A stretch of DNA of 64,000 nucleotides, taken from Bacteroidales bacterium (lineage in GTDB: Bacteria > Bacteroidota > Bacteroidia > Bacteroidales > FEN-979). The stretch lies in contig JAQWBQ010000012.1 of assembly GCA_028706295.1 (NCBI GenBank), positions 1-64,000 on the forward strand, read 5' to 3'. A model generated the notes under the pieces. That model was not told the DNA's origin. It did no database searches and worked only from the letters and a program-made list of their open reading frames with translations. Made by a program: the position numbers and the translations under genes. Shown one piece after another: positions 29,943-64,000 of this stretch (its first letter is position 1; every line of letters starts with the position of its first letter).

Positions 29943-29977
29943 TTTGATAACGGTTCCCTTAACATTTGCTATTTTTG
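29943..29977 (+). promoter_or_regulatory. Putative promoter for the alkaline phosphatase
   Basis: TATTTTTG (29970-29977) matches TAnnTTTG. TTTG (29943-29946) lies 23 bp upstream, slightly wider than the common 19-21 bp. The ATG at 30001 follows after about 20 bp. Confidence 0.5.
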
Positions 29978-30000
29978 CCGGCACATCTAAAACTATTCCC

Positions 30001-31443: not shown

Positions 31444-31487
31444 AAAAGTGTTCCATACGGGAAGGTAAATGCCGGCTCCCGGTTTTA

Positions 31488-47841: not shown

Positions 47842-47878
47842 GTTCAGTGATTTTATTGTGTTGCGTGGAACAGGAGTT

Positions 47879-48757
47879 TTAAACGGTATCCATAAAGGTT
47901 TTTTCAACCTTGTTGAATATCACGATACCAACTGCAAGCAGTACGATCATAAATCCGACGCTGTAAAGCAGTTGCAGGTAGTTGATCTCTCCGACCCCGA
48001 GAAGCGCCGTCTTGAAGGTTTCAATCACCGGCGTCATGGGATTGGCGATCACCAGGATTTTGAACTTTTCGGGGATTTCGGATAACGGGTAGATGATCGG
48101 TGTCGCATACATCCAGAGGGTCACACCGAATGTCACCAGGTGGGTAAGGTCGCGGTACTTGGTTGTCATGGAAGAGATGATGATCCCGAAACCCAGCCCG
48201 AGCCCGGCCATAATGACCACCAAAACCGGGATCCAGAGAACGAGAAGGTTTGGCGCAACGTCGGATCCCTGGATCATGAAGTAGACCAGGAAACAGCAGA
48301 GGAAGATGAATTGAATGAGGAAGCTGACCAGGTTTGAGATCACGACCGATATGGGCAGGGCAAGCCGCGGAAAATATACCTTTCCGAAAATTGAGGCGTT
48401 CTTAATGAAGGTTTGCGACGTATCGTTCAGGCAGGTCGAAAAATAGGTCCATCCCACAATTCCCGACATGTAAAAGAGCACTTTGGGGATTCCGCCTGTT
48501 GAAATACCGGCGATATTACCGAAGATGATGGTGAACATGATCGTCGTCAGGAGCGGCTGGATGATAAACCAGAGGGGACCCAGAATCGTTTGTTTGTATT
48601 TGGAAACGAAATCGCGCCTGACAAAGAGGGTGATCAGGTCGCGATATTGCCATAATTCCCGGAGGTTCACATCGAGCAGACTTCGCTTGGGACGCATGAT
48701 CATGGTCCATTCATCCGGGTAGGTGTTCTGCTGATTTTCGATCGTGGTTGTATTCAT
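47879..48757 (-). CDS. wzm: ABC exporter permease Wzm
   Basis: 292 aa from ATG 48757 (NTTTIENQQNTYPDEW); an ATG 33 bases upstream overlaps the fucose synthase gene. ABC2_membrane family with six predicted transmembrane segments. The start has the Wzm-like LRELWQYRDLITLFVRRDFVSKYKQTILGPLWFIIQPL, then GIVGWTYFSTCLNDTSQTFI and KVYFPRLALPISVVISNLV, ending in IVIFNKVEKTFMDTV. It forms the channel for lipid-linked glycan with Wzt. Gap of 22 bp to the fucose synthase gene. Confidence 0.92.
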   Translation of the reverse strand: MNTTTIENQQNTYPDEWTMIMRPKRSLLDVNLRELWQYRDLITLFVRRDFVSKYKQTILGPLWFIIQPLLTTIMFTIIFGNIAGISTGGIPKVLFYMSGIVGWTYFSTCLNDTSQTFIKNASIFGKVYFPRLALPISVVISNLVSFLIQFIFLCCFLVYFMIQGSDVAPNLLVLWIPVLVVIMAGLGLGFGIIISSMTTKYRDLTHLVTFGVTLWMYATPIIYPLSEIPEKFKILVIANPMTPVIETFKTALLGVGEINYLQLLYSVGFMIVLLAVGIVIFNKVEKTFMDTV

Positions 48758-48779
48758 AACTGGATTTCCGGATTTAATG

Positions 48780-49748
48780 TCAGGAAGCATATTTTTTCAC
48801 AAAATCGGCGTAGGTACTGGTGATTCCATCCCGGAGGTGTATGGATGGGGTGAATCCCAGTGAATGGAGCAGCGATACATCAAGCAGTTTTCGCGGAGTT
48901 CCGTCGGGTTTGGAGGTATCAAATATCAATTCGCCCTGAAAGCCTACCACCTCTTTGATCAGCAATGCCAGGTCGCGGATGGTGATGTCCTTCCCCCAGC
49001 CGATATTCACGAATTTATCGCCCGAGTACGTTTGCATGAGATAAACCACGGCCGCGGCAAGGTCGTCGACATGCATAAATTCACGCAATGGCGAACCGGT
49101 TCCCCACACGGTAACCCCGGGCGCATTGTTTATTTTGGCTTCGTGGAACTTACGGATGAGCGCCGGGAGGACATGAGAATTTTGCAGGTCATAATTGTCG
49201 TTGGGGCCATAAAGGTTGGTCGGCATCACCGCGATAAAATTGGTGCCATACTGGAGGTTGTAATTCTCGCACATTTTCAGTCCGGCTATTTTCGCGATGG
49301 CGTAAGGTTCATTGGTGTATTCGAGGGGACCGGTCAGCAGGTATTCCTCCCTGATCGGCTGTGGGGCGTTTTTCGGATAGATGCAGGAACTTCCAAGGAA
49401 GAGCAGCTTTTTGACCTGTGAAAGATAAGCCTGGTGTATGACATTGTTTTGTATCAAAAGATTGTCATACAGGAACTGGGCCCGGTAGGTGTTGTTGGCA
49501 ACGATACCGCCCACCCTTGCGGCTGCCACGAAGACATAATCAGGTTCCTCCTCTGTGAACAGGGCATGGCAGGCCACCGGGTCGAGCAGATCGACTTTAC
49601 GGTACCTGACCTTCTCAAATTTTTCGCCGGTCGACCGGTAATCGGTGCCTACAATGTTATCATATCCCTGGTTGAGAATATTCCGGAGGATGGCGCTGCC
49701 GACCATGCCGGCGGATCCCAGGATCAGAATTTTATCGTTCTTATTCAT
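48780..49748 (-). CDS. fcl: GDP-L-fucose synthase
   Basis: 322 aa from ATG 49748. SDR epimerase/reductase that turns GDP-4-keto-6-deoxymannose into GDP-L-fucose. NADP-binding [34 protein letters not shown], a family hallmark; active-site [35 protein letters not shown] (YxxxK), and [19 protein letters not shown]. Overlaps the gmd gene by 8 bp. Confidence 0.95.
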
Positions 49749-50856
49749 AGTAATTTTTAATATCGAATCCACCTTCTTTGAGGTATTTATCCCGTTTCAT
49801 CAGTTTCAGGTCACTGTTGACCATATCTTTGACCAGTGAGTTGAGATCGTGTTCGGGTTCCCATCCAAGTTGTTTTTTTGCTTTGGCAGGATCGCCGATC
49901 AGCAATTCAACCTCGGTAGGCCTGAAGTAACGCGGATCGACGCGTACCACCACTTTCCCGGCGGGAAGTTTAAATTCCGGATTCAGACATTCCCTGACGA
50001 TTCCCTGTTCATGAACCCCTTCGCCTTCAAAATCGACGATGATCCCCAGTTCCCGGAAGGCAAGCCTGACGAAATCACGCACCTCGGTCGTAACCCCGGT
50101 CGCGATCACGTAATCATCAGGCTTATCCTGTTGAAGGATCAGGTACATGGCCTTGATGTAATCTTTAGCATGACCCCAGTCGCGTTTTGCCGACAGGTTT
50201 CCCAGGTGAATGGTATCCTGGAGGCCCAGCGCGATCTTTGCCACGGCGCGGGTGATCTTGCGGGTGACAAAGGTTTCGCCGCGGATGGGCGATTCGTGGT
50301 TGAACAGAATGCCGTTGCAGGCAAAGATGTTGTAAGCCTCCCGGTAATTTACCACGATCCAGTAACCGTAGAGCTTGGCAACCGCATACGGGGAACGGGG
50401 ATAGAACGGCGTCTTTTCCGATTGCGGTATCTCCTGTACTTTTCCGTACAATTCGCTGGTTGAGGCCTGGTAGAATTTAGTCTTCTCAGCCATTCCCAGT
50501 AACCGGATGGCTTCGAGCAATCTGAGCGTGCCCAGTGCGTCGGCATTCGCCGTGTATTCAGCAGTCTCAAAGCTGACCTGTACGTGCGACATGGCCGCAA
50601 TGTTATAGATCTCATCCGGCTGGGTCTCCTGGACGATCCTGATCAGGTTCGTCGAATCAGTCATATCCCCGTAATGAAGAAAAAAGTGCTTGTTGCTTAC
50701 AAATGGATCCTGGTAAAGATGGTCGATCCGGTCGGTGTTGAACAGCGATGAACGCCTCTTGACGCCGTGAACCACGTATCCCAGTTTTAACAGATATTCC
50801 GACAGGTAGGCCCCATCCTGCCCGGTGACTCCAGTAATTAGCGCAACTTTATTCAT
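49741..50856 (-). CDS. gmd: GDP-mannose 4,6-dehydratase
   Basis: 371 aa SDR enzyme making GDP-4-keto-6-deoxy-D-mannose. [84 protein letters not shown] (YxxxK), [17 protein letters not shown] and [16 protein letters not shown] are all strict Gmd blocks. With Fcl it supplies GDP-L-fucose. The GDP-mannose source (ManB/ManC) is not in the window. Confidence 0.97.
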
Positions 50857-50890: not shown

Positions 50891-53260
50891 TCAGAATTTC
50901 CGGATTAAGCCGACGGTCGATCTTCGCAACCTGATGAAGTGCCGGATGGCCGGATGCCGGTTCTCGGTATTGTCGGGAATATGGATGTCCATATTCCTGA
51001 CTTTTTGTTTAACGTCGGTGAAGACGATGTTCAGGCGTTTCATCTTATTTTCAACGGCCTCGGCAATCGAAGTCGCGAAATGCTTCTTGGTTGAGTAATT
51101 GTAACGGACAACATACAGCGTTACATCGGAATACCGGTTCAGCAGGAAGGCGTCGCCCAGATATCCGACAGGAGGGGTGTCGACAATGATGAAATCGTAC
51201 CGTTGGCGCAAAACGGAAAACAATTCCCGGGTTTTCTCCGATTCGATGAGTTCATCGGGATTCGGAGGGGTAGGGCCCGAAAGCAAGATGTCGAGATTTT
51301 TAGTATAGGTGTGTTGGATAACCTGATCAATTTCAAGGTCATTGATCAGGAAATTGGTGACACCTTCGGAGCGTGTCAGGTTGAAGGCTTCCGAAATTTT
51401 GGGACGGTGGAGGTCAAAGCCCAGCAGGAGGGTTTTTTTCCCCGCAAGGGCATAAACCGAAGCCAGATGGATTGCCAGGTAGGTTTTCCCTTCATCGATT
51501 ACCGAAGAGGTCACGGAGATGACCTGTTCACCTTTCGTTGGATCCAGGTTCAGTTTGATCTTGATGATCCGCAGCGTTTCGGTGAAAGCGGAATTGGCAG
51601 AAAGGAGTATTTTCCCGGTTCGCTTATCCGTATTCCTGACGAGTGTCCCGATGACCGGGATGTCGGTTATGGCGTCGATATCGTCGCGTGAGAGAATCCG
51701 GTTGTTGAGCAAAACAATGAGGAACAGAAATACTGCGGGTATCAGAATGGCCCAGATCAGGGCATTGAGATAGGCTGTTTTCGGACTGGCCGAAACCGTA
51801 GTGATCCCGGTGTCGCCTGCATAATCGAGTATTTCGTGATCGGGCGTATTGGCGGCACGCTGAATTTCAGTTTCCGATTTTCGCTGGAGCAGAAAATCGT
51901 AGAGATTGTTGTAGACGTTGTATTTCCGTTCGATTTCCAAATATTTCCGTTCAATCCCGGGTAAGGTAGAGAAATCGACATCCTTCTCGAGCAGCCTTTT
52001 ATCCAGATCGTCAATTTTCAGTTGCGTGGTCTTGATGATGCTGTTCATGTTCTCAATCAGGGCGACCTTCATGTTGGAGATTTGTTCATCGAGCACCTGG
52101 ATGTAAGGATTTTGCCGTGATGAATTTGCAATCAGATCCTCTTTTTCGAGGGAGACGGTCGACAGTTTCAATACCAGGTCGGAGAAGAGGGGCAGGCTTA
52201 ATCCAACGGTTGAAGGCATCACCACATCCTCAAAGGAGTTGTGCTTGAGGAGGTAATCGAGGAGGTATTCATAATATTTTTTGTCGGAGAGCAGATTAGC
52301 CCGGTCTTTTGCAAGGTCGCCCATCTCTTTGAGCAGTGCAGTGGCCTTGGCCGAAAGCTGCATAAACTTGTTGTCCTTTCGGAATTCCTCCAGCTTCTGT
52401 TCCGCCGAATCCAGGTCGGCTCCCATCTGGAGGATTTGTCCGTCGATAAATTCAATGGTGCTCGTGAGGATACGGTTTTTTTTCTCCAGGTTGGTTACCA
52501 GGAAGACCCGGGTCAACTCGTTCAGGTAGTCTTTTTCCTTGTTTTTATTGGGGCCCGAGGAGGTTATGACGATTACCGAACCCTGTTTGGCGGTCTCGAT
52601 GTTGGTCTTTTTCCGGTATTGCGCGGTCAACTGGTTGAGGTCGTTGATCATGAAGCCGTAATCCTGTCCGGTATAGTCGGCAGGATTGATGTTATCTTTA
52701 AGGAGAATGGAAAAGGAATAATCCTTTCCGGAAATGACCTCCCCGAACCGGTAGTTTTTAACCTCGGGGACTCCGCCCGGATGTTCTGAGCGGAACTGAA
52801 AGCCCGATTTTCCGTCAAATTTCAATTCGAACCTGACATTCCGGACCTGACTGTGACCCGTGTCAAGCTTCACGATAAACGGGGCACGTGTGTATATCTC
52901 TTCCCAAATATAAGTTCCTTTGGCAAAGTAAGAAACTTCGAAGTTGAGATTCCGGATGATGAGGCGGATCTGAGAAAAGGATTTCAGGATGGCTATTTGA
53001 TTGTCAATCAGTTTTGAATTCAGAAATAACGGATCTGCTGAAATGGAACCCCGCTGATCGAGAACCGATTTATTGCTTTTATCTTCGATAAGCACCGAGG
53101 TGGACAAGCTGTAAATGGGCACCACATACCGGTTCTGGATGGTGGCAATCAGGTAGGCAATGATCAGGGCAAGGGCGAACAGATACCAGTTTCGGGCATA
53201 TTTTATAAGAACCCGTTTAAAATCGATTCCGCCTTTCAGATTGGTACTTACTTTCCCCAC
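50891..53260 (-). CDS. Wzc-like polysaccharide co-polymerase and tyrosine kinase
   Basis: 789 aa inner-membrane protein. TM1 about 28-48, periplasmic Wzz domain and long coiled coil, GNVR-like region, TM2 about 505-525, then a cytoplasmic BY-kinase domain: Walker A VISVTSSVIDEGKTYLAIHLA, Walker A' TLLLGFDLHRPKISEA, Walker B YDFIIVDTPPVGYLGD. BY-kinases set chain length and coordinate export with Wza. The C-terminal tail (from NMDIHIPDNTE to LIRKF) has no tyrosine, so the usual autophosphorylated tyrosine cluster is missing. Start is GTG 53260, 8 bp after the wza-like gene; there is no ATG nearby. Confidence 0.92.
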   Translation of the reverse strand: MGKVSTNLKGGIDFKRVLIKYARNWYLFALALIIAYLIATIQNRYVVPIYSLSTSVLIEDKSNKSVLDQRGSISADPLFLNSKLIDNQIAILKSFSQIRLIIRNLNFEVSYFAKGTYIWEEIYTRAPFIVKLDTGHSQVRNVRFELKFDGKSGFQFRSEHPGGVPEVKNYRFGEVISGKDYSFSILLKDNINPADYTGQDYGFMINDLNQLTAQYRKKTNIETAKQGSVIVITSSGPNKNKEKDYLNELTRVFLVTNLEKKNRILTSTIEFIDGQILQMGADLDSAEQKLEEFRKDNKFMQLSAKATALLKEMGDLAKDRANLLSDKKYYEYLLDYLLKHNSFEDVVMPSTVGLSLPLFSDLVLKLSTVSLEKEDLIANSSRQNPYIQVLDEQISNMKVALIENMNSIIKTTQLKIDDLDKRLLEKDVDFSTLPGIERKYLEIERKYNVYNNLYDFLLQRKSETEIQRAANTPDHEILDYAGDTGITTVSASPKTAYLNALIWAILIPAVFLFLIVLLNNRILSRDDIDAITDIPVIGTLVRNTDKRTGKILLSANSAFTETLRIIKIKLNLDPTKGEQVISVTSSVIDEGKTYLAIHLASVYALAGKKTLLLGFDLHRPKISEAFNLTRSEGVTNFLINDLEIDQVIQHTYTKNLDILLSGPTPPNPDELIESEKTRELFSVLRQRYDFIIVDTPPVGYLGDAFLLNRYSDVTLYVVRYNYSTKKHFATSIAEAVENKMKRLNIVFTDVKQKVRNMDIHIPDNTENRHPAIRHFIRLRRSTVGLIRKF

Positions 53261-53267
53261 CTTTTAT

Positions 53268-54074
53268 TTATTTAAAGAATGTGTAAATCAGCAATGTAAA
53301 GGTCACGATGGTGGTGAGTACGGTCAGCGAGAAGGTCGGTGTAATCCCGATGGCTTTTGCTTTCATGGGTTCGGCATAAATCACATCGTTGGGGTAGATA
53401 TAGAACATGTTCTTCCCGATTTGATTTCCGCTCGTTACATCAACCAGGTATAACTTTCTGACCCCGTTTTCAGTTCTCAGTACTTTTATCTTGTTCCGCT
53501 TGGCATAGTCGGTAAGTCCGCCGGCCAGGGTGATCGCTTCGTAGATACCCAATTGATTCCGGGTCATGTTGTAAACACCCTGTTTGTTGAATTCTCCCAG
53601 AAAATAAACGGTATTGTTGATCAGTACCATCTCGATCCTGCAACGGCCCACAAGTTTGGTGATGTGTGTCCGCAGTGTGTCCCTGGCTTCCCGGATGGTC
53701 AGTCCGCCCAGTTTTACAGGTCCGATGTAAGGGTAGTAGATGGTGCCGTCGTTGTATACATGGAAACCGATAAGGGCCTGGTTTTCGAGGTTCAGGTAAT
53801 TTAATCCGGCCAGGGGCTCAACGACCTGTGTCAGGGGTTTTTCCACGGTTAGAATACTGATGTAGAGGTAATCATTGGGTTGGATCCGGTAGATCGTATC
53901 TTCAAAATGTTTTCCCTCGAAGGTTTTGGCATAGGTGCTGTCGATCAGCTTTTCATATTGCATCAGCAACAGTTGTTTCTGGGGTATGCATGATGTGATT
54001 ACCCCGATCGCAAGCAAAAGCACCAGATTGATTAAGCAATTTCGGAAACCGGAGATGCTGTTCTTATGATTCAT
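53268..54074 (-). CDS. Outer-membrane polysaccharide export lipoprotein (Wza/OPX)
   Basis: 268 aa. A lipoprotein signal (LVLLLAIGVITSC, lipobox Cys about residue 29). Polysaccharide-export domain with FEDTIYRIQPNDYLYIS, VYNDGTIYYPYIGPVKLGGLTIREARDTL, one SLBB domain with NTVYFLGEFNKQGVYNMTRNQLGIYEAI and AGGLTDYAKRNKIKVLR, and a C-terminal hydrophobic helix (TPTFSLTVLTTIVTFTLLIYTF). The short form with a terminal helix is common in Bacteroidota OPX proteins. It is first in the core EPS transcription unit behind the 54101 promoter. Confidence 0.94.
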   Translation of the reverse strand: MNHKNSISGFRNCLINLVLLLAIGVITSCIPQKQLLLMQYEKLIDSTYAKTFEGKHFEDTIYRIQPNDYLYISILTVEKPLTQVVEPLAGLNYLNLENQALIGFHVYNDGTIYYPYIGPVKLGGLTIREARDTLRTHITKLVGRCRIEMVLINNTVYFLGEFNKQGVYNMTRNQLGIYEAITLAGGLTDYAKRNKIKVLRTENGVRKLYLVDVTSGNQIGKNMFYIYPNDVIYAEPMKAKAIGITPTFSLTVLTTIVTFTLLIYTFFK

Positions 54075-54100: not shown

Positions 54101-54130
54101 CAAAAATAATAATTTTGACATGAGATGCAA
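54101..54130 (-). promoter_or_regulatory. Promoter of the core EPS operon
   Basis: On the minus strand, TTG (complement of 54128-54130), 19 bp, then TATTTTTG (54101-54108), an exact TAnnTTTG box. The start point would lie near 54095, about 20 nt before ATG 54074. It lies in the 89-bp gap between the PAS hybrid gene and wza, so the signalling/initiation genes and the export genes may be separately transcribed. Confidence 0.7.
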
Positions 54131-54163: not shown

Positions 54164-55732
54164 TTATGTGGATTGGTCGATGAGCCGGAGCAGATCCTCC
54201 CGGTTGATGGGTTTAATCAGATGTCCGGCAAAGTGATGCTCCTGAATCCGGTCGTTGTAACTTCTGGAGGTGTAAGCTGTCTGGGCCAGGAAGGGAACGT
54301 TTTGATAACCGGGCCACCGTTTCTCTATCTCCGTTTTAAGCAGGATGCCATCCCAGGGTATTGGAAGTCCTATATCCATGATCACCAGACTGAACAGGGT
54401 TCCTTTATTATAGCGGAGTTCAATGATGTTGAGGGCCTCATTTCCTGAATAGGCTGTAGTAACCTCCGCGATGTTTTCCAGGAACATGGCCAGGATCCGG
54501 GCAGTGAATTTTTCATCTTCCACGATCAGAATATCCGGCTTTTTCTTGCGGATGGATTCTTCGAGCCGGGTCAGGTCGTCGGGATTTTCACCCCGGGCCA
54601 GAAGTGGCAGCATAATGCGCACTATCTCACCCATCGACGGGCCGGTTGTAAAGGAAATCTTCCCGCCGATCCGGTTGAGGATGTGCAGCATGGAAGCTAT
54701 TTCAGGGTTTTGAAGCGCAACCGGATTTGTCAGGTCATAGCGTTCCTTTTGGTTTTCCCGGTTGATGAAATGGATCATGCTTTGCGGGATGTCCTGTCCG
54801 ATGTTGTCGATGAGCACGATGGCCTGTCTGCCCGGTGCGTCCTCGCTTGCTTCCAGCAGCACCGCGTCCCCACGGGTATATGTTGCCGCTTTTGTAATCA
54901 GGAATTTGAGCAATTCGATCAGGAGCTCTTCATCGGTAAATACAAGGATTTCGGGGACCGGTTTGATGTGGATGGAAAGGTCGTTTTTCCGGGCCAGGGG
55001 TTCCAGGATGATTCCGGCTTTCTGAAGGATCGGGGCGAGCAGGCAGGGTGCCCGGTTGACTTCGGGAAGGTCCTCTTCGCCGAATGTAACCTGGTTGAGA
55101 ATTTTTTTTAACCGGTTGCCGCTTTTCAACAGCGAATCGACCGTACCTGCCAGTTTTTTGTTCTCTTTAACGGAGGATTCTCCTGAAAGAAGCGCACCGA
55201 AACCGAGGATGCTGTTGAGGAGGTTGCGGACGTTGTGTTCGAAATCGGCAGCCCATCTGGGAAGCTTATCAGAAGCGGGGCCCGGGGGTGCCATAACCGG
55301 AGGTTGGGGCTCGGCCGGGCGGGCGTGTTCCGGGGGAGCGGCAGCAGGCTCCTGCTCTGTGATTTCAACGCAGGTACCTAAAAATTTCTGTCCCTCTATC
55401 TCTTTGAAATCAAACAGGACCGGATGCAGATACCGTTGGGAATCGATCAGGAAAAGTTTCGCGGTAAATTCTGAAAGCTGACGGGTGTCGAACGGATTAT
55501 CAACGGTCTTCAGGGTCACGAAAAGATCCCTGACATTATATTCCCGGATCTCTTCATCCTGGTATCCTGAAAGAAGCCGGGCCGGTTGGTTGAGCAGGAA
55601 CAGGTCGCCGTCGGTGTCGGCCAGAAAAGTTGCGTCTTTTTTGTTTCCCAGAAGGGTTTTATAATATTCCCTGTTCGGAAGCGTCTTGCGCTCCCGGCTT
55701 TCCCGGCTTCCGAAGACAGATTTGATCGCCAT
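54164..55732 (-). CDS. PAS hybrid kinase-receiver protein with atypical kinase core
   Basis: 522 aa, soluble. A PAS-like sensor (about 22-130; LLGNKKDATFLADTDGDLFLLNQ) is followed by a proline-rich linker (132-155). The dimerisation motif FEHNVRNLLNSILGFGALL carries His166, with Asn-Val replacing the usual Glu-Leu/Phe after it. The ATPase part (about 240-385) keeps IVLIDNIGQDIP but has no clear N box (LIELLKFLITKAATY), so kinase activity is doubtful. The receiver (about 398-522) has ILIVEDEKFTARIL, LVIMDIGLPIPWDG and LIKPINREDL. It could act as a phosphotransfer or phosphatase partner. It lies between the anchored receiver and the EPS promoter. Confidence 0.9.
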   Translation of the reverse strand: MAIKSVFGSRESRERKTLPNREYYKTLLGNKKDATFLADTDGDLFLLNQPARLLSGYQDEEIREYNVRDLFVTLKTVDNPFDTRQLSEFTAKLFLIDSQRYLHPVLFDFKEIEGQKFLGTCVEITEQEPAAAPPEHARPAEPQPPVMAPPGPASDKLPRWAADFEHNVRNLLNSILGFGALLSGESSVKENKKLAGTVDSLLKSGNRLKKILNQVTFGEEDLPEVNRAPCLLAPILQKAGIILEPLARKNDLSIHIKPVPEILVFTDEELLIELLKFLITKAATYTRGDAVLLEASEDAPGRQAIVLIDNIGQDIPQSMIHFINRENQKERYDLTNPVALQNPEIASMLHILNRIGGKISFTTGPSMGEIVRIMLPLLARGENPDDLTRLEESIRKKKPDILIVEDEKFTARILAMFLENIAEVTTAYSGNEALNIIELRYNKGTLFSLVIMDIGLPIPWDGILLKTEIEKRWPGYQNVPFLAQTAYTSRSYNDRIQEHHFAGHLIKPINREDLLRLIDQST

Positions 55733-55749
55733 GGTTCCAATAACTTATT

Positions 55750-56259
55750 TCAGGAAAACAACCAAATCAGGATCACCGCTGTGACCGCAACAACCAGGGA
55801 GATGATCAACAGTCTTTTTTTGTACTTTTTTACCAGGAGCTTGTTGCGGGCCATCTCCCCGCGCAATTTCCGGGATTCAGCAACCTGTTCCATGGTCTTC
55901 AGCAGGTTCGGCAGCAACTCTTCATCCTTGACGATAAAATCGATGGCTCCGAGTTTCAGCAGGGTGGTTGCCTCCCCGATGTCGGTATTCGAAGTGAGTA
56001 CAATCACCGGGAGACTTTTATTGATCCGCCGGATAAATCGCAATATCTTTTCGCCGTTCATGGCCACGCCGATTTCACTCTCAATAAAATAGTCAAGGAG
56101 TATAAAATCGGGATCTTCTTCCCAGGCAGAGATCATGTGTTCGCCTGTTCTGAAAGCTTTCACTTCGTACCCTTTGAGTTCCAGCGAAACTTTCAGTGTT
56201 TCGGCGAACATTTCGTTATCTTCCACAAGGAAGATCATGCCATTGCTATTCTGTTCCAT
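55750..56259 (-). CDS. Receiver protein with C-terminal membrane anchor
   Basis: 169 aa from ATG 56259 (EQNSNGMIFLVEDNEMFAE). Receiver 8-125 with acidic pair VEDNE, phospho-acceptor Asp56 in DFILLDYF, VLTSNTDIGEATTLLKLGAI and the Lys of FIVKDEEL. A coiled, basic link (RKLRGEMARNKLLVKKYKKR) is followed by a C-terminal transmembrane helix (about 147-166, LLIISLVVAVTAVILIWLF). No output domain. It overlaps the WecA-like gene by 14 bp, so both are made together. A tail-anchored receiver could gate EPS enzymes at the membrane. It resembles the receiver at 61018-61458, which shares the (F/Y)I(V/P)KDE motif. Confidence 0.88.
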   Translation of the reverse strand: MEQNSNGMIFLVEDNEMFAETLKVSLELKGYEVKAFRTGEHMISAWEEDPDFILLDYFIESEIGVAMNGEKILRFIRRINKSLPVIVLTSNTDIGEATTLLKLGAIDFIVKDEELLPNLLKTMEQVAESRKLRGEMARNKLLVKKYKKRLLIISLVVAVTAVILIWLFS

Positions 56260-57430
56260 CTTTTTCTTCCAGGTTATCCATGATAAGACGATTGTCAACT
56301 TGCATGCGCAGCGACTGGTTTTTCAGTTTACGGCCCCTGAAGCCGGCCTTGATTAGCTTGTAGAGGGTCAGCGATTCGGAGAAGAGGAGCGCCTCGAGCA
56401 GGAGGAGCGGTAACACGAGGGCCATATGTTGCGACCTCAGGAAAAACCCCGTCATGATGATCACGATGTTGGCCGTGTATAAAATCTTTGCCGATTTGGG
56501 GTGGTTGAAGCCGGTGTTCATCAGCAAATGGTGGATGTGTGTTTTATCGGGGCTGAAGGGCGATTTCTTATTGAGGACCCGTTCCATAAATACCCGCAGC
56601 GTATCGTAAACGGGCAGGAGGAAAATACTGAACACCATGATTGCGGCTTCGGTATATCTGAAATGGGAAGTGGGGCCCCGGCTGATCACGAGGGCCATGA
56701 TACCCATTCCCGACAGGACATACCCCAGGACCATCGAACCCGTGTCGCCCATGAAAATCTTCGCGGGATGGTAATTGTATTTCAGGAAGCCCAGAAGGGA
56801 ACCGGCGATGGAGGCCACGATCAGTGCCAGCCCGTATTCACCGGCAATGATGAAAAGAATGAAAAAACCAGTCATATCGATGAGCGCCAGTCCGCCTGCA
56901 AGTCCGTCGATCCCGTCGATCAGGTTAAACGCGTTGATGACCCCGGCAACGATGAAGGCTGTGATCAGGTATTGGATTATGACCGGAAGATGTTCGATTC
57001 CGAAAATTCCGAAGAAATCGTCGATCCGCAATCCGCCATGAGCCAGAAACACCGCGGCAACGATCTGTCCCACCAGTTTGATTTTCGGAGGCAGTTCACG
57101 AAGGTCATCGATCACGCCGATGACAATGAGCAACATCATTCCCAGGAGGAAGTGGATGAGCATGATTTTGTCGCCGCTGAGGAACCAGAGCGGAGCAGTC
57201 ACTAAAACCCCGCTTACAATGCCCAGGCCGCCCAGCCGGCTGATGGGTATTTTATGAACTTTCCGTTCGTTGGGTTTATCGACAAGGTTGTACCGGGCTG
57301 ATAATTTGATGATCACGGGGATCAGGACCAGGCACAGGATGAAACCCGTCAGGAATGCCGCGGCGGAGATCAGCATGTCGTCGGCCTTCGCGTGGCTGAA
57401 GAAATCGGGAAACAGGTCGAATATGGACAT
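56246..57430 (-). CDS. WecA/TagO-type undecaprenyl-phosphate sugar-1-phosphate transferase
   Basis: 394 aa, about eleven transmembrane helices. Initiates EPS repeat-unit synthesis on undecaprenyl phosphate. DDLRELPPKIKLVGQ, the active site NAFNLIDGIDGLAGGLA, IFMGDTGSMVLGYVLSG and KTHIHHLLMNTGF (HxHH typical of WecA-type enzymes) are visible. A cytoplasmic C-terminal tail of about 50 residues follows. Start ATG 57430. Gap of 17 bp to the GT2 gene upstream. Confidence 0.93.
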   Translation of the reverse strand: MSIFDLFPDFFSHAKADDMLISAAAFLTGFILCLVLIPVIIKLSARYNLVDKPNERKVHKIPISRLGGLGIVSGVLVTAPLWFLSGDKIMLIHFLLGMMLLIVIGVIDDLRELPPKIKLVGQIVAAVFLAHGGLRIDDFFGIFGIEHLPVIIQYLITAFIVAGVINAFNLIDGIDGLAGGLALIDMTGFFILFIIAGEYGLALIVASIAGSLLGFLKYNYHPAKIFMGDTGSMVLGYVLSGMGIMALVISRGPTSHFRYTEAAIMVFSIFLLPVYDTLRVFMERVLNKKSPFSPDKTHIHHLLMNTGFNHPKSAKILYTANIVIIMTGFFLRSQHMALVLPLLLLEALLFSESLTLYKLIKAGFRGRKLKNQSLRMQVDNRLIMDNLEEKDGTE

Positions 57431-57447
57431 AGTTTGTTCTTAAAATA

Positions 57448-58215
57448 TCATATTTGTCGGTTGATCCACTCAGGAGGCATGAACTGCTTGAATTTCGAAG
57501 CGTTCTTGTTAAAAAGGGCTGCAAAAGTTATCAGTCCGTTGGTATGCATGGCGCGGATGTCCTCTTTACTTTTCCGGATCACATTTTTGAGACTTTTATT
57601 ACTCTCACCCCCCATACGCATGCGGACCAGGATCAGCGGGATGTAAAAGGTGCTGACCTGGAACCTTACCAGAAAACGGAGGATGGATTCGTAATCGGCA
57701 GCAATCCGGAAGGTTGTATTAAAACCGCCGTATTTTTCATAAATGCTTTTCTTCACGTAAAAGGTCGGGTGCGGAGGCATCCAGCCCGTCAGGGCCCGCG
57801 CCCGGGAGAATTTCCGGGAACGCCAGAATCGGATGATCTTCCCCGTATCGTTCTGATCGACATAAACCAGGTCGCCATAAACCGAATCGACATCAAACCG
57901 CCTGAAAGCCTCGGCAATCAGTTTGAGGGTATCGGCGGAGGCGTAAATATCGTCGGAGTGGAGGAACCCGACAACCTCCCCGGTGGCCATTCTGATTCCT
58001 TTGTTCAGGGCATCGTAGAGCCCGTTATCCTTTTCCGATACGAACTGGTGAATCCGGTTGCCATAGGACTTCACGATATCGCAGGTTGAATCCTTCGACC
58101 TGCCGTCCACGATGATGTATTCAACATCCGGATAAGTCTGGCTCAGCACCGATTCGATGGTGTCGCGAAGGGTTTTCTCGCTGTTGTATGTAATCGTTAT
58201 GACCGAAATCTTCAT
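57448..58215 (-). CDS. Family 2 glycosyltransferase (WcaE/WbyL-like)
   Basis: 255 aa from ATG 58215 (an upstream TTG is less likely). ISVITITYNSEKTLRDTIESV, YIIVDGRSKDSTCDIV, NKGIRMATGEVVGFLHSDDIY, DSVYGDLVYVDQNDTGKII, GWMPPHPTFYVKKSIYEKYGG, RMRMGGESNKSLKNVI. Close paralogue of the gene at 34847-35611. Gap of 18 bp to the WcaF-like gene upstream. Confidence 0.92.
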   Translation of the reverse strand: MKISVITITYNSEKTLRDTIESVLSQTYPDVEYIIVDGRSKDSTCDIVKSYGNRIHQFVSEKDNGLYDALNKGIRMATGEVVGFLHSDDIYASADTLKLIAEAFRRFDVDSVYGDLVYVDQNDTGKIIRFWRSRKFSRARALTGWMPPHPTFYVKKSIYEKYGGFNTTFRIAADYESILRFLVRFQVSTFYIPLILVRMRMGGESNKSLKNVIRKSKEDIRAMHTNGLITFAALFNKNASKFKQFMPPEWINRQI

Positions 58216-58233
58216 CGTCAATAAAATTAGTGG

Positions 58234-58818
58234 TTATTTCTGCTTCTCTCCGGGGTTCATTTCGGGCTCAAATACCCGGTCTTTCACCTTTACAGCAGGA
58301 TTGCCCTGGTATATCGAAAAGGCTTCAAGGTTGCGGGTGGCGACCGAATTTACCGCGAGGACGGCGTGCGATTTACAGGTCACACCCGGACAGACAATAC
58401 TGTAAGCGCCGATCCAGGCCCCGTCTTCGAGGATGATCCTTCCGGTGATCAGGTCGAAGGCAGGCTTCCGGTAATTGTGGTTTCCACAGAGCAGCATGGC
58501 TCCCTGCGAGATGCAGCAATGTTTTCCGATTACCACCTCGTCGAGGTTATCGATCCAGGCGTACTCCCCGATCCAGGCATAATCGCCGACAGTAAGCCTC
58601 CAGGGGTATTTTATATTGACAGCCGGCTTGATGTTGACCCCTTTTCCCACTTTCGCGCCGAATAACCGGAGCAGCGTGCATTTCAGAGCGCTCGACGGGA
58701 TCAGAGGTGATTTGAAAAAGAGGATGTTGACGTAATACCACAACAGCCGTTTGAAAGCGCCGCCTCCCGGATCGTATGCGCTGTTATCGTATTTCGACAG
58801 GTCAGTGCTCATGGTCAT
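58234..58818 (-). CDS. wcaF: WcaF-like colanic-acid-type acetyltransferase
   Basis: 194 aa. The start STDLSKYDNSAYDPGGGAFKRLLWYYVNILFF and SPLIPSSALKCTLLRLFGAKVGKG are signature stretches of WcaF. They are followed by a short beta-helix (VNIKYPWRLTVGDYAWIGEYAW, VIGKHCCISQGAMLLCGNHNYRK, WIGAYSIVCPGVTCKSHAVLAV) and the end IYQGNPAVKVKDR. Predicted to O-acetylate a repeat-unit sugar. The ATG overlaps the stop of the upstream transferase (58815-58818). Confidence 0.93.
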   Translation of the reverse strand: MTMSTDLSKYDNSAYDPGGGAFKRLLWYYVNILFFKSPLIPSSALKCTLLRLFGAKVGKGVNIKPAVNIKYPWRLTVGDYAWIGEYAWIDNLDEVVIGKHCCISQGAMLLCGNHNYRKPAFDLITGRIILEDGAWIGAYSIVCPGVTCKSHAVLAVNSVATRNLEAFSIYQGNPAVKVKDRVFEPEMNPGEKQK

Positions 58819-59954
58819 TGGTTAAAAAGGTTGATATTTTCCGCCAGCATTTCAGGATTGGAGCACCAGTCGCGGGCATACCGGTAAGCCTTTTCCGACC
58901 AGATATTAAAGGCGGGTGCATCCAGGACGGCAAATGATTCGAGCGCGCTGACAAACGCTTCCGGTTTCTCAAGCGGCAGATCGTAACCGATGCCTGCTTC
59001 GGTCAGGTTCTTCCAGGGTGTGCGGTCGCTGATAATTACCGGACAACCTGCCATAAAGCTCTCGAGGATCGTGTGGCCGAAATTTTCGCCGGTCGTGGGC
59101 AGGAGCATGATGTCATATTTTTGCAACTCATTCAGGATCATTTCGCTGTTGATGCTTCCGCGATAGTTGACCCCAATATTTGAGGGAAGCGATTGAATGA
59201 GGTCCTGGCATCTGGCCCAGTAGGATTCATCGTAAACCGGACCCACCAGGTCGTACCGGATTTTATGCCGGGTGCATTTGGTCAGGAGTTCCAGGGCAAA
59301 GAGTTGGTTTTTCTCCGGCGAGATCCGGGCAATGGTAACCATGTTCAGTGAATTTTCGATCTTCGGAATCCGGCGGGGTGGCTGCGAGATTTTACGGGGC
59401 AGTTCGCGGGCCTCGGCAATCCGGGTCCCTTTGCCGATATGGGTTTTGATATCAACGGTTTCATGATCGGTAACGGAGTGGAATACGGTATTCCGGTAAA
59501 GACCGGTTAACCGCATGAGGCGTAAAAAGAACATTTTTCTGCCCGGTTTTACACCCAGGGCTCCCTTCCCGAGTACCCCGTGGGAGGCAATGACAATCCG
59601 CCTGCACCGCCGGAGTTTTGCCAGGAGCACGGGCAGGAATGAAAACCAGAACCCGAACAGCAGGTGAATATAAACCACATCGTAGGTCTGCTCCCCGAGC
59701 AGTCGGTAAACGAGTGTAACTTTACGTTCGCGGGCTGAAACATAGTAAATATGCACATTGGGCTCGGGATGGGTCCACTGATCGGAAATCACCGATGGAT
59801 ACGGTGAAGTGTCGGTATAATCGGTATCACTGGTGACAATGAAGAATTCAAAGTCGTTTTTCAGGTAATCAACCTGGTTCATGAAGGCCCGAATGGTACC
59901 GCCTGCTTTATAGCCGGGCCAGTAATAATCGGTGAAGGAGAGAATTTTCTTCAT
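58815..59954 (-). CDS. Family 4 glycosyltransferase
   Basis: 379 aa GT-B enzyme. Starts KKILSFTDYYWPGYKAGGTIRA, then VTIARISPEKNQLFALELL, YDIMLLPTTGENFGHTILESFMAGCPVIISD (E-x7-E type) and RDWCSNPEMLAENINLF. Overlaps genes on both sides by 4 bp. Confidence 0.92.
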   Translation of the reverse strand: MKKILSFTDYYWPGYKAGGTIRAFMNQVDYLKNDFEFFIVTSDTDYTDTSPYPSVISDQWTHPEPNVHIYYVSARERKVTLVYRLLGEQTYDVVYIHLLFGFWFSFLPVLLAKLRRCRRIVIASHGVLGKGALGVKPGRKMFFLRLMRLTGLYRNTVFHSVTDHETVDIKTHIGKGTRIAEARELPRKISQPPRRIPKIENSLNMVTIARISPEKNQLFALELLTKCTRHKIRYDLVGPVYDESYWARCQDLIQSLPSNIGVNYRGSINSEMILNELQKYDIMLLPTTGENFGHTILESFMAGCPVIISDRTPWKNLTEAGIGYDLPLEKPEAFVSALESFAVLDAPAFNIWSEKAYRYARDWCSNPEMLAENINLFNQ

Positions 59955-60949
59955 CTTTTTTCAGATAAAATCTCTTCATAAAGCGTTGCGAACTGCTCCC
60001 CGATAGTGCGGGGATGAAATCGTTTTACGTTCTCAAATCCCCGTGCAATCAATCCTGACCTCAGCTCCGGTTCACTGATGATCCGCATCACGGCGCTCCG
60101 GATCGAATCGATACTTTCGGCATCCACCAGTAAGGCACCATCCCCGGCCACCTCGGGTAAAGCGGTGTTGTTGCCGGCAATGACCGGCCGGCCGATGGCA
60201 TTGGCTTCGAGGATGGGGAGCCCGAAGCCTTCGTAAGTTGATGCAAAAAGGATGAGGTCGGCATTCCGGTAGTGGTCAAGTACCTCTGCGTAGGGAAGGT
60301 TGTAATAATTCCGGTGCCGGATGTGGTGGTTCGAGAGCAATGTTTCCTGTTCGGCCGATAGTTTCCCGATGATCACCAGGGTGATGTTCATTCCTTCGAG
60401 GGCGGGGATAACCCGGTGCAGGTTCTTGTTGGGAGTGGTCCCGATCTGCAGGATCACCGGCTCAACGGCATTGAATTCCCGTGGAACCGGAACAATTTCG
60501 GGTGCGATACAATCATAAACAACCCGGATCTTTGAGGCAGGAATGGCAGTCAGCGCCATCAGTTCCGCTTTAATGAATTCGGAGATGACCGAAATGTACC
60601 GGACCCGGCGGGCAGGCATGGTGAACCAGAAAAACCGGATGACCGCTTTTTTTAATCTGCCCCCCGAGGTCAGAATCCGCAGATCGTGGATGGTCAGGAT
60701 GGTCTTGTGTTTCCTCAGAAACAGCGCAATGTAATGGACATCTCCGGTGATATGGTTTACATCGCCCTGATGAAACGCGGCATCAATGGTATTGATCATA
60801 CGGTTCCAAAGGCCGGTACTGTTCCGCTTCATGATGTACCTGACCGGGGTCACCGATACGGGTAATGCGTTTATAATGGTCTCAAACAGTTCTTCAATGC
60901 TGTGGTGCCATGGGGCGTTTGCCTTGCGAAAAAAGAAAACGGTTTGCAT
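59951..60949 (-). CDS. Family 4 glycosyltransferase (GT4)
   Basis: 332 aa from ATG 60949 (QTVFFFRKANAPWHHSIEELF). A GTG at 61021, which would overlap the upstream receiver stop as GTGA, gives 24 extra residues that look non-homologous; that start is less likely but possible. Core: VHYIALFLRKHKTILTIHDLR, VILQIGTTPNKNLHRVIPAL, LILFASTYEGFGLPILEANAIGRPVIAGN (E-x7-E), ALPEVAGDGALLVDAES. Sugar unknown. Confidence 0.9.
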   Translation of the reverse strand: MQTVFFFRKANAPWHHSIEELFETIINALPVSVTPVRYIMKRNSTGLWNRMINTIDAAFHQGDVNHITGDVHYIALFLRKHKTILTIHDLRILTSGGRLKKAVIRFFWFTMPARRVRYISVISEFIKAELMALTAIPASKIRVVYDCIAPEIVPVPREFNAVEPVILQIGTTPNKNLHRVIPALEGMNITLVIIGKLSAEQETLLSNHHIRHRNYYNLPYAEVLDHYRNADLILFASTYEGFGLPILEANAIGRPVIAGNNTALPEVAGDGALLVDAESIDSIRSAVMRIISEPELRSGLIARGFENVKRFHPRTIGEQFATLYEEILSEKR

Positions 60950-61017
60950 CGAACCTGTTTTTGTAAGCGTGACCCTGTCGACGATTGGTGAAACATCACC
61001 ATGCTTCACGCGGGTTT

Positions 61018-61458
61018 TCACTCATGATCCGTGAGAAATTTCTTCACTTTCGAAAGGACCGAGCCGGCACGTCTGTTTTCCTGTTTTTTCCGACCTTCCG
61101 ATTCCATCTCTTTCAAAACCTTTAACAATCTTTCCAAAGCCTTTTCATCTTTGGGAATGTAATCTCTTGCTCCTTTTTTCATCGATTGAACCGCGACTTT
61201 CACATCTTTCTGACCCGACATGAAAATAACCTGCAAATCGGGTTTATAAGCCCGGATCTTCTGAAGGATTTCCACACCGTTGATAAGGCCGATCTGATAG
61301 TCCATAATTATTACATCCGGCGCCTTTTCTTCGTAAACCTGCAACAGGCATTCGAGGCCGTTATCGAAATGTTTCAGGTCAGTGTAACCGTTTTGCCTTA
61401 AAAACTCCTGCAACAGGGTGGCATAAAAGTGATCGTCTTCAACCAGCACTATGAACAT
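61018..61458 (-). CDS. Free-standing receiver protein heading the EPS locus
   Basis: 146 aa. A receiver (1-120): IVLVEDDHFYATLLQEFL, phospho-acceptor Asp53 in IIMDYQIGLINGVEIL, FMSGQKDVKVAVQSMKKGARDYI, and PKDEKALERLLKVLKE at the Lys. The C-terminal 26 residues are basic and lysine-rich; there is no output domain. It is the first gene of the minus-strand EPS run and divergent from the hybrid kinase at 61585. It probably relays phosphate or acts by binding a partner. Confidence 0.9.
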   Translation of the reverse strand: MFIVLVEDDHFYATLLQEFLRQNGYTDLKHFDNGLECLLQVYEEKAPDVIIMDYQIGLINGVEILQKIRAYKPDLQVIFMSGQKDVKVAVQSMKKGARDYIPKDEKALERLLKVLKEMESEGRKKQENRRAGSVLSKVKKFLTDHE

Positions 61459-61513
61459 AACGTGATTTCCTGTTAAAGATAAACCTTAAATAATTATTTT
61501 TGAAGTGCAACTT

Positions 61514-61529
61514 GTTATACAAATATAAC
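61514..61529. promoter_or_regulatory. Dyad with embedded -7 box in the receiver/hybrid kinase gap
   Basis: GTTATA-CAAA-TATAAC is a perfect inverted repeat (61514-61519, 61524-61529). On the minus strand it contains TATATTTG (61520-61527), an exact TAnnTTTG box, 61 bp before ATG 61458. No good -33 match was found, so this is a candidate regulated promoter. The rest of the gap 61459-61584 is AT-rich without other clear signals. Confidence 0.45.
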
Positions 61530-61584
61530 GATAATTAATTACCAGATAACCCTGGCTGTTTTTTTTTACCAACAAGACCGGAAT

Positions 61585-64000
61585 ATGGAAAACCTCGGAA
61601 TTAGGGAGTTGCTGGATCTGGCAGTGAACCTGTCGGTTGAACCTGTGCCTCCGGAGGATGGTTTGAACGGATATTTCAAACGGATCGTCCCGGCGCTGAC
61701 CGAAAAATTGAACTGCCTTCAGGTGGAAATCGGGCAAAAAGATCCCTGTCCCGGCAGTGGTCGCACGGAGCCGGAGGTTTCTGATGGCGAAGAGTTATTA
61801 CTGGTTGATGAAGAGTCGGATGTCCATTATGTTTTTCAGATATTTCCCGGGAATTTTCTGCACCTGACCCGTCGGGAATGTTTCGGCAAAAGCGAAATGA
61901 AGGCAGTTGTTGGAGTTTTAAAGGTTCTCAAGGAGAAGTGTCGCACGTTGATCCTTTTTGAAAAAATGCAGGAGCGGGAAGCCCATTTGAAAAAAGAACA
62001 AAACTTATTGCGTCAGATCATCGACAACATTCCGGACCCGGTATATGTTAAAGACCTCGGGGGTCGAAAAATACTGTTAAACAAGGCGGAGGCAGAACTC
62101 CTGAATGTTTCATCCGCGGAAGAGGCGTTGGGTAAAACCGATGAAGCGTTCTACAGCCCCGAAGTGGCGGCAAAAACCCATTCGGAGGATTTGACGGTTC
62201 TCAGTTCCGGGAAGCCTTTTATCAACGTTGAAGATACCCTGATCACCCTGTCGGGGAAAGAATTGTGGTTCGAAGGCAATAAAATCCCCTTTTTTGATGA
62301 TACCGGAAATGTGCAGGGCATTATCGGGATCAGTCACAATATTACGGATCGTAAGAATGCAGAAAACCAGTTGTCGCACCTGTTCCGCCTTCAGAAACTG
62401 GTAAGCCGCATCGCTGCTGAATTCATTAACATTCCCCTCGATACCAGCGATGAGGCGGTCAACAACTTGCTGGAATTGATCGGTAGTGAAACCATGGTTG
62501 ACAGGGTTTACATTTTCGACTATGACTTCCAGGCGGGGCTCATGACAAATACGTTCGAATGGTGTGCCGAAGGGATCAATCCTGAAATAGAGAATCTCCG
62601 AAACATCCCGGTCGACGACTTTCCCGACTGGGTAAATACCCATCGTAACGGGAAGATGCTTGTGGTACATGATGTTCAAAAGCTGGCTGCGGGCGATCCG
62701 TTGCGGATGATCCTCGAACCGCAAGGCATCAGGACCCTGATCACCGTGCCGATGATCGTCAACAACACCTGCCTGGGATTTGTCGGGTTTGATTCAGTCA
62801 GGAAGGTGAAACCATGGAGTAATGAGGAGATATCGCTTTTACAGATTCTGGCTGACCTGTTGTGTAATGTAGCCGACCGGAAACGGACCGAAATGGAGCT
62901 ACTGACACGGGAAGCTTACCTGAACTCAATCTTCGACAACATTCCTTACCTGATGTGGCTTAAAGATACTGAAGGCAGGTATTTGTTGGTAAACAAACCC
63001 TTCTTTGAATATTTCAGTCTGACTGAAAATGATAATCCGGTGGGGAAAACAGCAAAAGATCTCTGGCCGGAACCCATCTCACAAATCATGATACAGCAGG
63101 ACCGGGAAGTGCTCGAAACACGGTCGTTGAAGATCGTGGAGGAGCAAATGGAATTCCACGGTAAAAAAGTCTGGTTCGAGGTATTTCGCGCTCCCATCAT
63201 TGATCCCGCAGGCGCGCTGCTCGGAACCACCGGGATCGCCCGCGACATCACCCGTAAAATTGCCGACGCTTTTGCCCTGCAGAAGGCAACCGAAGAGGCG
63301 CAGGCTGCATCGGTTGCAAAGACCCGGTTCCTGGCCAACATGAGTCATGAGATACGGACTCCCCTCAATGCCATTCTCGGGATGATCAGGTTGCTCAGGG
63401 ACTCAAAACTGGACGGAGCCCAACTGAAGCTGATCGACACCATCCGGATATCCTCATCGAACCTCCTCAGCATTATTAATGATATCCTTGATTTTTCGAA
63501 AATCGAATCGGGACAGTTCAATATCCTGATATCCGATTTCAATCTTACAGACCTTGTCAGGAAGGTTTACGATGCCAACGAGTACCGGGCCGAAGAGAAG
63601 GGCATTCAACTCAGTCTCAAAACGGATCAGAATATTCCCGATTGGGTAAAAGGCGACCCGGGACGATTGCAGCAAATCCTCAACAATCTGGTCAGCAACG
63701 CCATCAAATTCACCCGCGAGGGTTCTGTCGAGATCAGGTTGGAACTGGCGGGAAGCGAATCCGGCAGGAATCAGGTGCTTTTTAAAGTCTCCGATACCGG
63801 CATCGGTATCAGCCGGGAAAACCAAGAAAAGATTTTCAGGAGTTTCGAGCAGGAGGATATGAGTATAACCCGGACCTACGGGGGTACCGGTCTGGGCCTT
63901 GCCATCAGCAGACAGTTGGTGGAGCTTATGGGAGGCAGGCTTGAACTCGAAAGTGAAAAAGACCGGGGGAGTACATTTTATTTCACCTTTGAAATGGAAA
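61585..64000 (+). CDS. Large PAS-GAF-PAS hybrid histidine kinase (partial, runs off the window)
   Basis: 805 codons are visible from ATG 61585 to the edge with no stop. N-terminal 130 residues of unknown fold; PAS1 about 140-255 (LLRQIIDNIPDPVYVKD to HNITDRKNAE); a GAF domain about 270-432 (VDRVYIFDYDFQ, TLITVPMIVNNTCLGFVGFDS); PAS2 about 445-560 (SIFDNIPYLMWLKD to ARDITRKIAD). Then HisKA with KTRFLANMSHEIRTPLNAILGM (His588), and HATPase with ILNNLVSNAIKFTREG, VSDTGIGISRE and TYGGTGLGLAISRQLV. It ends at STFYFTFEME, so receiver or Hpt domains may follow outside. It has no transmembrane segment. It is divergent from the first EPS gene and likely feeds the free receivers. Confidence 0.93.
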   Translation, partial: MENLGIRELLDLAVNLSVEPVPPEDGLNGYFKRIVPALTEKLNCLQVEIGQKDPCPGSGRTEPEVSDGEELLLVDEESDVHYVFQIFPGNFLHLTRRECFGKSEMKAVVGVLKVLKEKCRTLILFEKMQEREAHLKKEQNLLRQIIDNIPDPVYVKDLGGRKILLNKAEAELLNVSSAEEALGKTDEAFYSPEVAAKTHSEDLTVLSSGKPFINVEDTLITLSGKELWFEGNKIPFFDDTGNVQGIIGISHNITDRKNAENQLSHLFRLQKLVSRIAAEFINIPLDTSDEAVNNLLELIGSETMVDRVYIFDYDFQAGLMTNTFEWCAEGINPEIENLRNIPVDDFPDWVNTHRNGKMLVVHDVQKLAAGDPLRMILEPQGIRTLITVPMIVNNTCLGFVGFDSVRKVKPWSNEEISLLQILADLLCNVADRKRTEMELLTREAYLNSIFDNIPYLMWLKDTEGRYLLVNKPFFEYFSLTENDNPVGKTAKDLWPEPISQIMIQQDREVLETRSLKIVEEQMEFHGKKVWFEVFRAPIIDPAGALLGTTGIARDITRKIADAFALQKATEEAQAASVAKTRFLANMSHEIRTPLNAILGMIRLLRDSKLDGAQLKLIDTIRISSSNLLSIINDILDFSKIESGQFNILISDFNLTDLVRKVYDANEYRAEEKGIQLSLKTDQNIPDWVKGDPGRLQQILNNLVSNAIKFTREGSVEIRLELAGSESGRNQVLFKVSDTGIGISRENQEKIFRSFEQEDMSITRTYGGTGLGLAISRQLVELMGGRLELESEKDRGSTFYFTFEME

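Follow-up and report, generated by a model that had tools for sequence, protein, structure and literature searches.

We analysed a stretch of 64,000 nucleotides (the window) from a Bacteroidales bacterium of the FEN-979 lineage (GenBank assembly GCA_028706295.1, contig JAQWBQ010000012.1, positions 1 to 64,000), in which a polysaccharide gene cluster holds three receiver-containing proteins and is flanked by a divergently transcribed hybrid histidine kinase. The cluster is a single, tightly packed run on the minus strand (61458 to 46585), with the gene order free receiver (RRfree), two GT4 glycosyltransferases, WcaF-type acetyltransferase, GT2 glycosyltransferase, WecA-like enzyme, receiver with a transmembrane helix (RRtm), PAS hybrid, Wza, Wzc, gmd-like gene, epimerase and Wzm/Wzt. 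Gaps within the run are negative or shorter than 35 nucleotides (nt), the only clear break being the one of 89 nt that separates the PAS hybrid from Wza. The features are as follows, in window coordinates.

61585-64000, continuing to contig position 64839, plus strand: divergent PAS-GAF-PAS-HisKA-HATPase-REC-HPt kinase (Pfam; contig sequence)
61018-61458, minus strand: RRfree, single-domain receiver, first gene of the run (Pfam Response_reg, 1.6e-24)
59951-61021, minus strand: GT4 glycosyltransferase b (Glycos_transf_1; syntenic orthologs), whose start codon overlaps the RRfree stop and whose true start may lie about 25 codons further in
58815-59954, minus strand: GT4 glycosyltransferase a (Glycos_transf_1)
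58234-58818, minus strand: WcaF-family acetyltransferase (NCBIfam NF007797, above cut-off)
57448-58221, minus strand: GT2 glycosyltransferase (Glycos_transf_2)
56246-57430, minus strand: WecA-like polytopic phosphoglycosyl transferase, the initiating enzyme (Glycos_transf_4, 9.5e-41)
55750-56259, minus strand: RRtm, receiver with one C-terminal transmembrane helix (Response_reg, 1.2e-17)
54164-55732, minus strand: PAS hybrid, with PAS, a segment resembling a dimerisation and histidine phosphotransfer domain, a kinase-core fold and a receiver (Response_reg, 6.8e-13; weak HisKA, 7e-5; PAS)
53268-54074, minus strand: Wza-like outer-membrane polysaccharide export protein (OPX; Poly_export and SLBB)
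50891-53260, minus strand: Wzc-like co-polymerase, P-loop present, no C-terminal tyrosine cluster (sequence inspection and alignment)
49741-50856, minus strand: GDP-mannose 4,6-dehydratase-like gene, gmd (family by sequence inspection; syntenic orthologs 87-94% identical)
46585-48790, minus strand: ABC exporter, Wzm (ABC2_membrane) and Wzt with a Wzt_C domain (domain matches)

Since the cluster includes an ABC exporter whose Wzt carries a Wzt_C domain, it is not a plain Wzx/Wzy exopolysaccharide (EPS) locus. An earlier note on this DNA had reported the three receiver proteins, the overlap with the WecA gene and the divergent kinase, all of which we recovered. It had also seen no DNA-binding output, in agreement with our Pfam search, which returned no DNA-binding family for any of the three receiver proteins.

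RRtm matches Response_reg as its only Pfam family. Its phospho-accepting aspartate (D57), the acidic residues, T90 and K112 are invariant in the alignment of all seven orthologs described below. In each of these, a C-terminal helix has a 19-residue mean hydrophobicity of 2.7-3.0, the rest of the protein reaching at most 1.06. Together with the basic residues (KKYKKR-like) that precede it, this hydrophobic helix predicts that RRtm is a cytoplasmic receiver on a tail anchor. The AlphaFold model has the receiver fold, with the last helix (116-169) continuing unbroken into the anchor. We placed the start of the gene at the ATG at 56259 and discarded the previously proposed TTG at 56298, a choice with which the ortholog starts agree. 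The gene overlaps the WecA stop codon by 14 nt, and this overlap is kept in the orthologs. The WecA-like enzyme itself conserves the DD, DGIDG, GDTGS and HIHH motifs in the alignment of seven. A search of the phylum with RRtm at E 1e-20 gave, outside its own genome, no full-length match with the exception of one that reads through stop codons.

RRfree consists in Pfam essentially of Response_reg alone, followed by a short basic and hydrophobic C-terminal tail (SKVKKFL), and its phospho-accepting D53, the acidic pair, S81 and K103 are invariant across orthologs. In every one of the seven genomes, the PAS hybrid retains the H-box histidine (DFEHxxR) and a complete receiver. It gave no HATPase_c match in the Pfam search, and in 7/7 orthologs the N-box asparagine is replaced by lysine (K281) and the GLGL (G2) box is gone, so that the features of the ATP-binding core expected of an active histidine kinase (N-box asparagine and glycine boxes) are missing. 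The AlphaFold model of this protein is poor overall (predicted local distance difference test score of 55), and we therefore used only region 160-380, which resembles a histidine kinase fold, with RetS and GacS among the matches. Because the kinase core keeps the fold but has lost the N-box asparagine and the G2 box, the PAS hybrid is, judged from its sequence and model, a conserved pseudokinase, possibly acting as a phosphotransfer or modulatory protein. RetS-type proteins are modulatory hybrid histidine kinases. The PAS hybrid shares with them the hybrid kinase fold, the receiver and an atypical catalytic core; it differs in keeping the H-box histidine while lacking the N-box asparagine and G2 box, and in being soluble, with no periplasmic sensor seen.

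The divergent kinase runs past the end of the window, and its full length in the contig is 1084 residues (61585-64839), ending in a receiver and a histidine phosphotransfer domain (HPt). The HPt scores 5e-5 for Hpt, slightly below the Pfam cut-off, and contains the SHK motif. With HisKA, HATPase, receiver and HPt, this protein holds the complete chain of a multistep phosphorelay, and the three receivers lie beside it. Hybrid kinases ending in an HPt require a downstream receiver. Downstream of the kinase are a DUF218 gene and a second PAS/GAF hybrid kinase that also ends in receiver and HPt, and both adjoin the locus in the relatives too, wherever the contig extends that far.

The co-occurrence of the receivers with the EPS genes in relatives, on which the first interpretation of this locus had been made to depend, was borne out in a sample of 61 genomes (the own genome and 60 relatives, searched by sequence as assemblies, several of them metagenome-assembled genomes (MAGs) with contig breaks). 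Orthologs of RRtm, RRfree, the PAS hybrid and WecA were found in an identical set of seven genomes and in none elsewhere, with large score gaps. All seven (G000, G002, G008, G009, G012, G015 and G029) belong to one family of freshwater Bacteroidales, and the arrangement is kept in six other MAGs, recorded as uncultured Bacteroidales or Bacteroidetes, several with lake names, whose receiver proteins are 55-70% identical. Gene order is constant across the seven, except for two inserted genes (G009, G012 and G015) and for loci split into two contig pieces (G002 and G015); in G015, each piece retains its receivers. The inserted genes, located between the PAS hybrid and RRtm, encode a DUF4842/DUF4114 protein and a Branch-type glycosyltransferase (L038:5754-8825; also L039 and L040). 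Wzc has an additional ortholog in G007, where the Wza-Wzc-ABC half is found without receivers, which indicates that the receivers travel with the WecA half. The Wza-Wzc-ABC half of G007 follows an unrelated NRPS-like (non-ribosomal peptide synthetase-like) gene with, by inspection, a thioesterase-like end (L148:8411-9673, minus strand). A pattern search for the PAS hybrid across genomes returned the six known clade members and one weak match, with no wider spread.

Elsewhere, a receiver-only gene directly upstream of Wza was found at one of 38 Wza loci sampled from the phylum (G132), and beside Wza at none of the 20 further Wza-Wzc loci examined from the same family and order. As the arrangement is kept in six other MAGs while being this rare at other Wza loci, it goes beyond chance. 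A wider pattern emerged only via Wza- and WecA-centred sampling, in which 395 Bacteroidia genomes were searched with a receiver of the G132 kind and 390 genomes in a WecA-centred search. Receivers lie directly before or overlap Wza in at least nine other families (f30, f36, f87, f96, f112, f115, f118, f134 and f137), in stretches that often also hold an NtrC-type regulator, a hybrid kinase and an H-NOX or FIST gene. In G549, a receiver and a complete OPX (Poly_export and SLBB) share one open reading frame with a lipobox between them (L265:11714-12943, minus strand), which may be a fused gene or contain an internal start. In four families, the own family included, a tail-anchored receiver comes directly after WecA, with a 14-nt overlap in G610 (f137), a 4-nt overlap in G665 (f134) and a 3-nt gap in G774 (f112). 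In the receiver tree, the WecA-side receiver of G610 is separate from RRtm of the window with low support, and both a common origin and convergence of the WecA-side receivers are compatible with it.

Several other genes were observed in these stretches. In several families, H-NOX genes stand beside the NtrC regulator, hybrid kinase and Wza/Wzc, at L266:2664-3224 (called by Pfam HNOB) and, called by sequence likeness, at L270:15375-15926, L265:15872-16474 and L310:4601-5149, which suggests nitric-oxide or redox control of polysaccharide; FIST-domain genes occupy the same position in L210 and L268. Tail-anchored single-domain receivers also occur beside hybrid kinases, HPt proteins or NtrC regulators, apart from Wza and WecA in the stretch seen (L272, L273, L274, L275 and L277), in one case near a gene resembling PorP/SprF (L274), and such receivers seem to be common in Bacteroidia. 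Single-domain receivers of family f31 are similar in sequence and were set aside, as they lie beside CheB/CheR-like genes and not in polysaccharide loci.

The co-polymerases of these loci share a further property. In the window clade, including G007, Wzc has 0-2 tyrosines in its last 35 residues (8/8 members) and retains Walker A and B (GKT, DTP). Scoring the tail as the maximum number of tyrosines per 12-residue window within the last 80 residues, we obtained 0-3 for 19/19 receiver-linked proteins and at least 4 for 43 of the 44 unlinked ones (G007 set aside); the exception, in G097, adjoins an NtrC-type receiver protein. The association between tail and receiver link (Fisher 2.9e-12 at a cut of 3) is overstated, the sequences being related. 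The receiver-linked proteins form two separate clades in the Wzc tree, with 97 and 100% support in the Shimodaira-Hasegawa-like approximate likelihood ratio test, and therefore represent two origins, not nineteen. As the distant loci were chosen by receiver similarity, their independence is limited. The distant clade often lacks the P-loop as well, which the window clade keeps. Loss of the first Walker A' aspartate in the window Wzc was dropped as a candidate feature, glycine being common at this position in Bacteroidota Wzc.

Two matches to the Bacteroidetes-type -7 promoter motif fall in the gaps of the locus.

54101-54108, minus strand: TATTTTTG, 34 nt before Wza (motif match)
61520-61527, minus strand: TATATTTG, 69 nt before RRfree, in the divergent intergenic region (motif match)

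The motif before Wza (TAnnTTTG) is found at -33/-34 in six of the seven orthologous gaps, the remaining one having it at -52. Going by the motifs alone, a first transcript would hold all three receivers, starting with RRfree and ending with RRtm and the PAS hybrid. Sigma-70 and terminator scans gave match numbers close to those of shuffled sequence. Near the polysaccharide run, the window also holds an undecaprenyl diphosphate synthase-like gene (33242-33928) and, close to the latter, alkaline phosphatase and 5'-nucleotidase-like genes (29944-32933).

We consider it somewhat probable (about 0.55) that this locus carries its own multistep phosphorelay, which ends on the polysaccharide machinery and not on DNA and exerts post-translational control of initiation. 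Such control fits receivers that have no DNA-binding outputs, one of them anchored in the membrane and with a conserved overlap with WecA, and it has a precedent in EpsW-EpsZ. The hybrid kinase would sense a signal through its PAS and GAF domains, phosphate would move from His to Asp to His (HisKA, receiver, HPt), and the HPt would phosphorylate the stand-alone receivers. RRtm, translationally coupled to the WecA-like enzyme, would sit beside it in the inner membrane, where its phosphorylated form would alter the activity of the enzyme, so that chain synthesis starts or stops. RRfree and the PAS pseudokinase-receiver may tune the phosphate flow or act on export, Wzc having lost the tyrosine tail through which such proteins are normally regulated. 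Inferred elements of this scheme are which proteins exchange phosphate, that RRtm touches WecA, in which direction the effect goes and what RRfree and the PAS hybrid do, the functions of these last two being the weakest part of the model.

The closest precedent comes from Myxococcus xanthus, where the gene for the single-domain receiver EpsW lies in the eps locus and the phosphorylated protein stimulates the initiating enzyme EpsZ while eps expression is unchanged (PMC12802240). Like EpsW, RRtm is a single-domain receiver with a conserved phosphosite and no output domain, encoded together with the genes of its pathway. The Myxococcus EPS pathway also uses a tyrosine pseudokinase, EcpK, and its co-polymerase system is independent of tyrosine phosphorylation (PMC12004946), as that of the locus here would be. 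The resemblance extends to the pair of EcpK and EpsV (a bacterial tyrosine pseudokinase and a phosphorylation-independent co-polymerase of the PCP-2 type; PMC12004946), which has no tyrosine cluster either, although here the kinase domain and co-polymerase form one protein and the P-loop is kept. Differences from EpsW-EpsZ are the source of phosphate (the Dif chemosensory system there, as candidate a PAS-GAF hybrid kinase with HPt here), the C-terminal transmembrane anchor of RRtm and the presence of an ABC transporter among the export genes. In addition, EpsZ is a large monotopic phosphoglycosyl transferase without the dimerising beta-hairpin, whereas the enzyme here is polytopic and of the WecA type (PF00953). 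Because the enzyme superfamily differs, and the receiver-enzyme contact here is a predicted one, RRtm-WecA most likely resembles EpsW at the level of logic and is not a strict member of the EpsW-EpsZ family.

In Vibrio fischeri, the syp locus has its own kinase and response regulators (SypF, SypG and SypE), SypE having no DNA-binding output (PMC3610818, PMC12369376). Like the locus here, syp is a polysaccharide locus with its own kinase and regulators, one of which is non-DNA-binding and acts below transcription. SypE differs in having Ser kinase and phosphatase domains and the STAS protein SypA as its target. SypG regulates transcription, and an anchored receiver that pairs with an initiating enzyme is described for neither. 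The earlier note's interpretation, post-translational control of the start and export of EPS, is partly supported by the data; its view that such interleaving was undescribed was too strong, given the phosphorelay embedded in syp and the position of EpsW in the eps locus. None of the open-access papers that we searched describes the pairing of a WecA-type enzyme with a tail-anchored receiver.

Three points weigh against the proposed control of initiation. First, the kinase orthologs of G008 and G012 (L037:14965-16737 and L038:14828-16699) have lost PAS-GAF-PAS and HisKA, with the reading frame open and the ATPase, the receiver and, by alignment, the HPt segment present; as these orthologs have no sensory part and no HisKA, the phosphate must there come from another kinase. 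Second, as WecA belongs to another superfamily than EpsZ, the action through dimerisation that has been proposed for EpsW may not carry over. Third, the Wzc of G007 is also without a tyrosine tail, although its Wza-Wzc-ABC half has no receivers.

The strongest alternative, which we regard as a less probable explanation, is that the receivers, as phosphate sinks or relay intermediates, shape the flux from the two linked hybrid kinases to a DNA-binding regulator encoded elsewhere, with transcriptional control and a location reflecting co-regulation alone. Stand-alone receivers often serve as sinks, as does DifD in Myxococcus (PMC12802240), the genome has about 40 receiver-containing places, and an NtrC-type regulator stands beside WecA or Wza at related loci of other families. 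In the stretches examined, however, no DNA-binding regulator is among the genes of the locus, and a sink needs neither an anchor nor an overlap with WecA, which leaves the anchored receivers after WecA in four families unexplained. It is also unlikely that RRtm acts mostly on export or assembly through Wzc/Wza, or that it gives the kinases a docking place in the membrane, with its proximity to WecA due to operon order alone. The receivers beside Wza in at least nine families, once in a single reading frame with OPX, and the missing tyrosine tails of receiver-linked Wzc are consistent with such a role, but anchored receivers are tied to WecA by overlap or near-contact in four families, the WecA pairs of G665 and G774 are separate from the Wza-Wzc stretch, and in G015 RRtm and the PAS hybrid have stayed beside WecA and Wza, RRfree being on a different contig. 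Finally, that the genes are mere passengers, kept together by recent common descent in seven genomes of one family with receiver orthologs 55-70% identical, is already largely refuted and very improbable, since the pairings recur in distant families with receivers not grouping with those of the window (tree, low support), the catalytic residues are invariant and both contig pieces of G015 keep their receivers.

More tentatively, and with less confidence than in phosphorelay control at this locus, anchored receivers may be a general post-translational switch for surface polysaccharides across Bacteroidia, one kind gating WecA-type enzymes and another Wza/Wzc export. The two kinds would jointly replace the phosphorylation of tyrosines in the co-polymerase, from which the tyrosine tail and often the P-loop have disappeared. 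At its first committed step, polysaccharide synthesis draws on undecaprenyl phosphate, for which peptidoglycan is a competitor. The regulation of this step is little worked out, EpsW-EpsZ being the sole worked case that we found of a receiver acting on an initiating enzyme. The locus and its relatives point to an EpsW-like logic that is applied to WecA, an unrelated and common class of enzyme, through a switch held in the membrane, and co-polymerases without tyrosine tails that accompany receivers offer a natural comparison. The recurrence in distant relatives suggests that the machinery itself is switched on and off, and not its genes alone.

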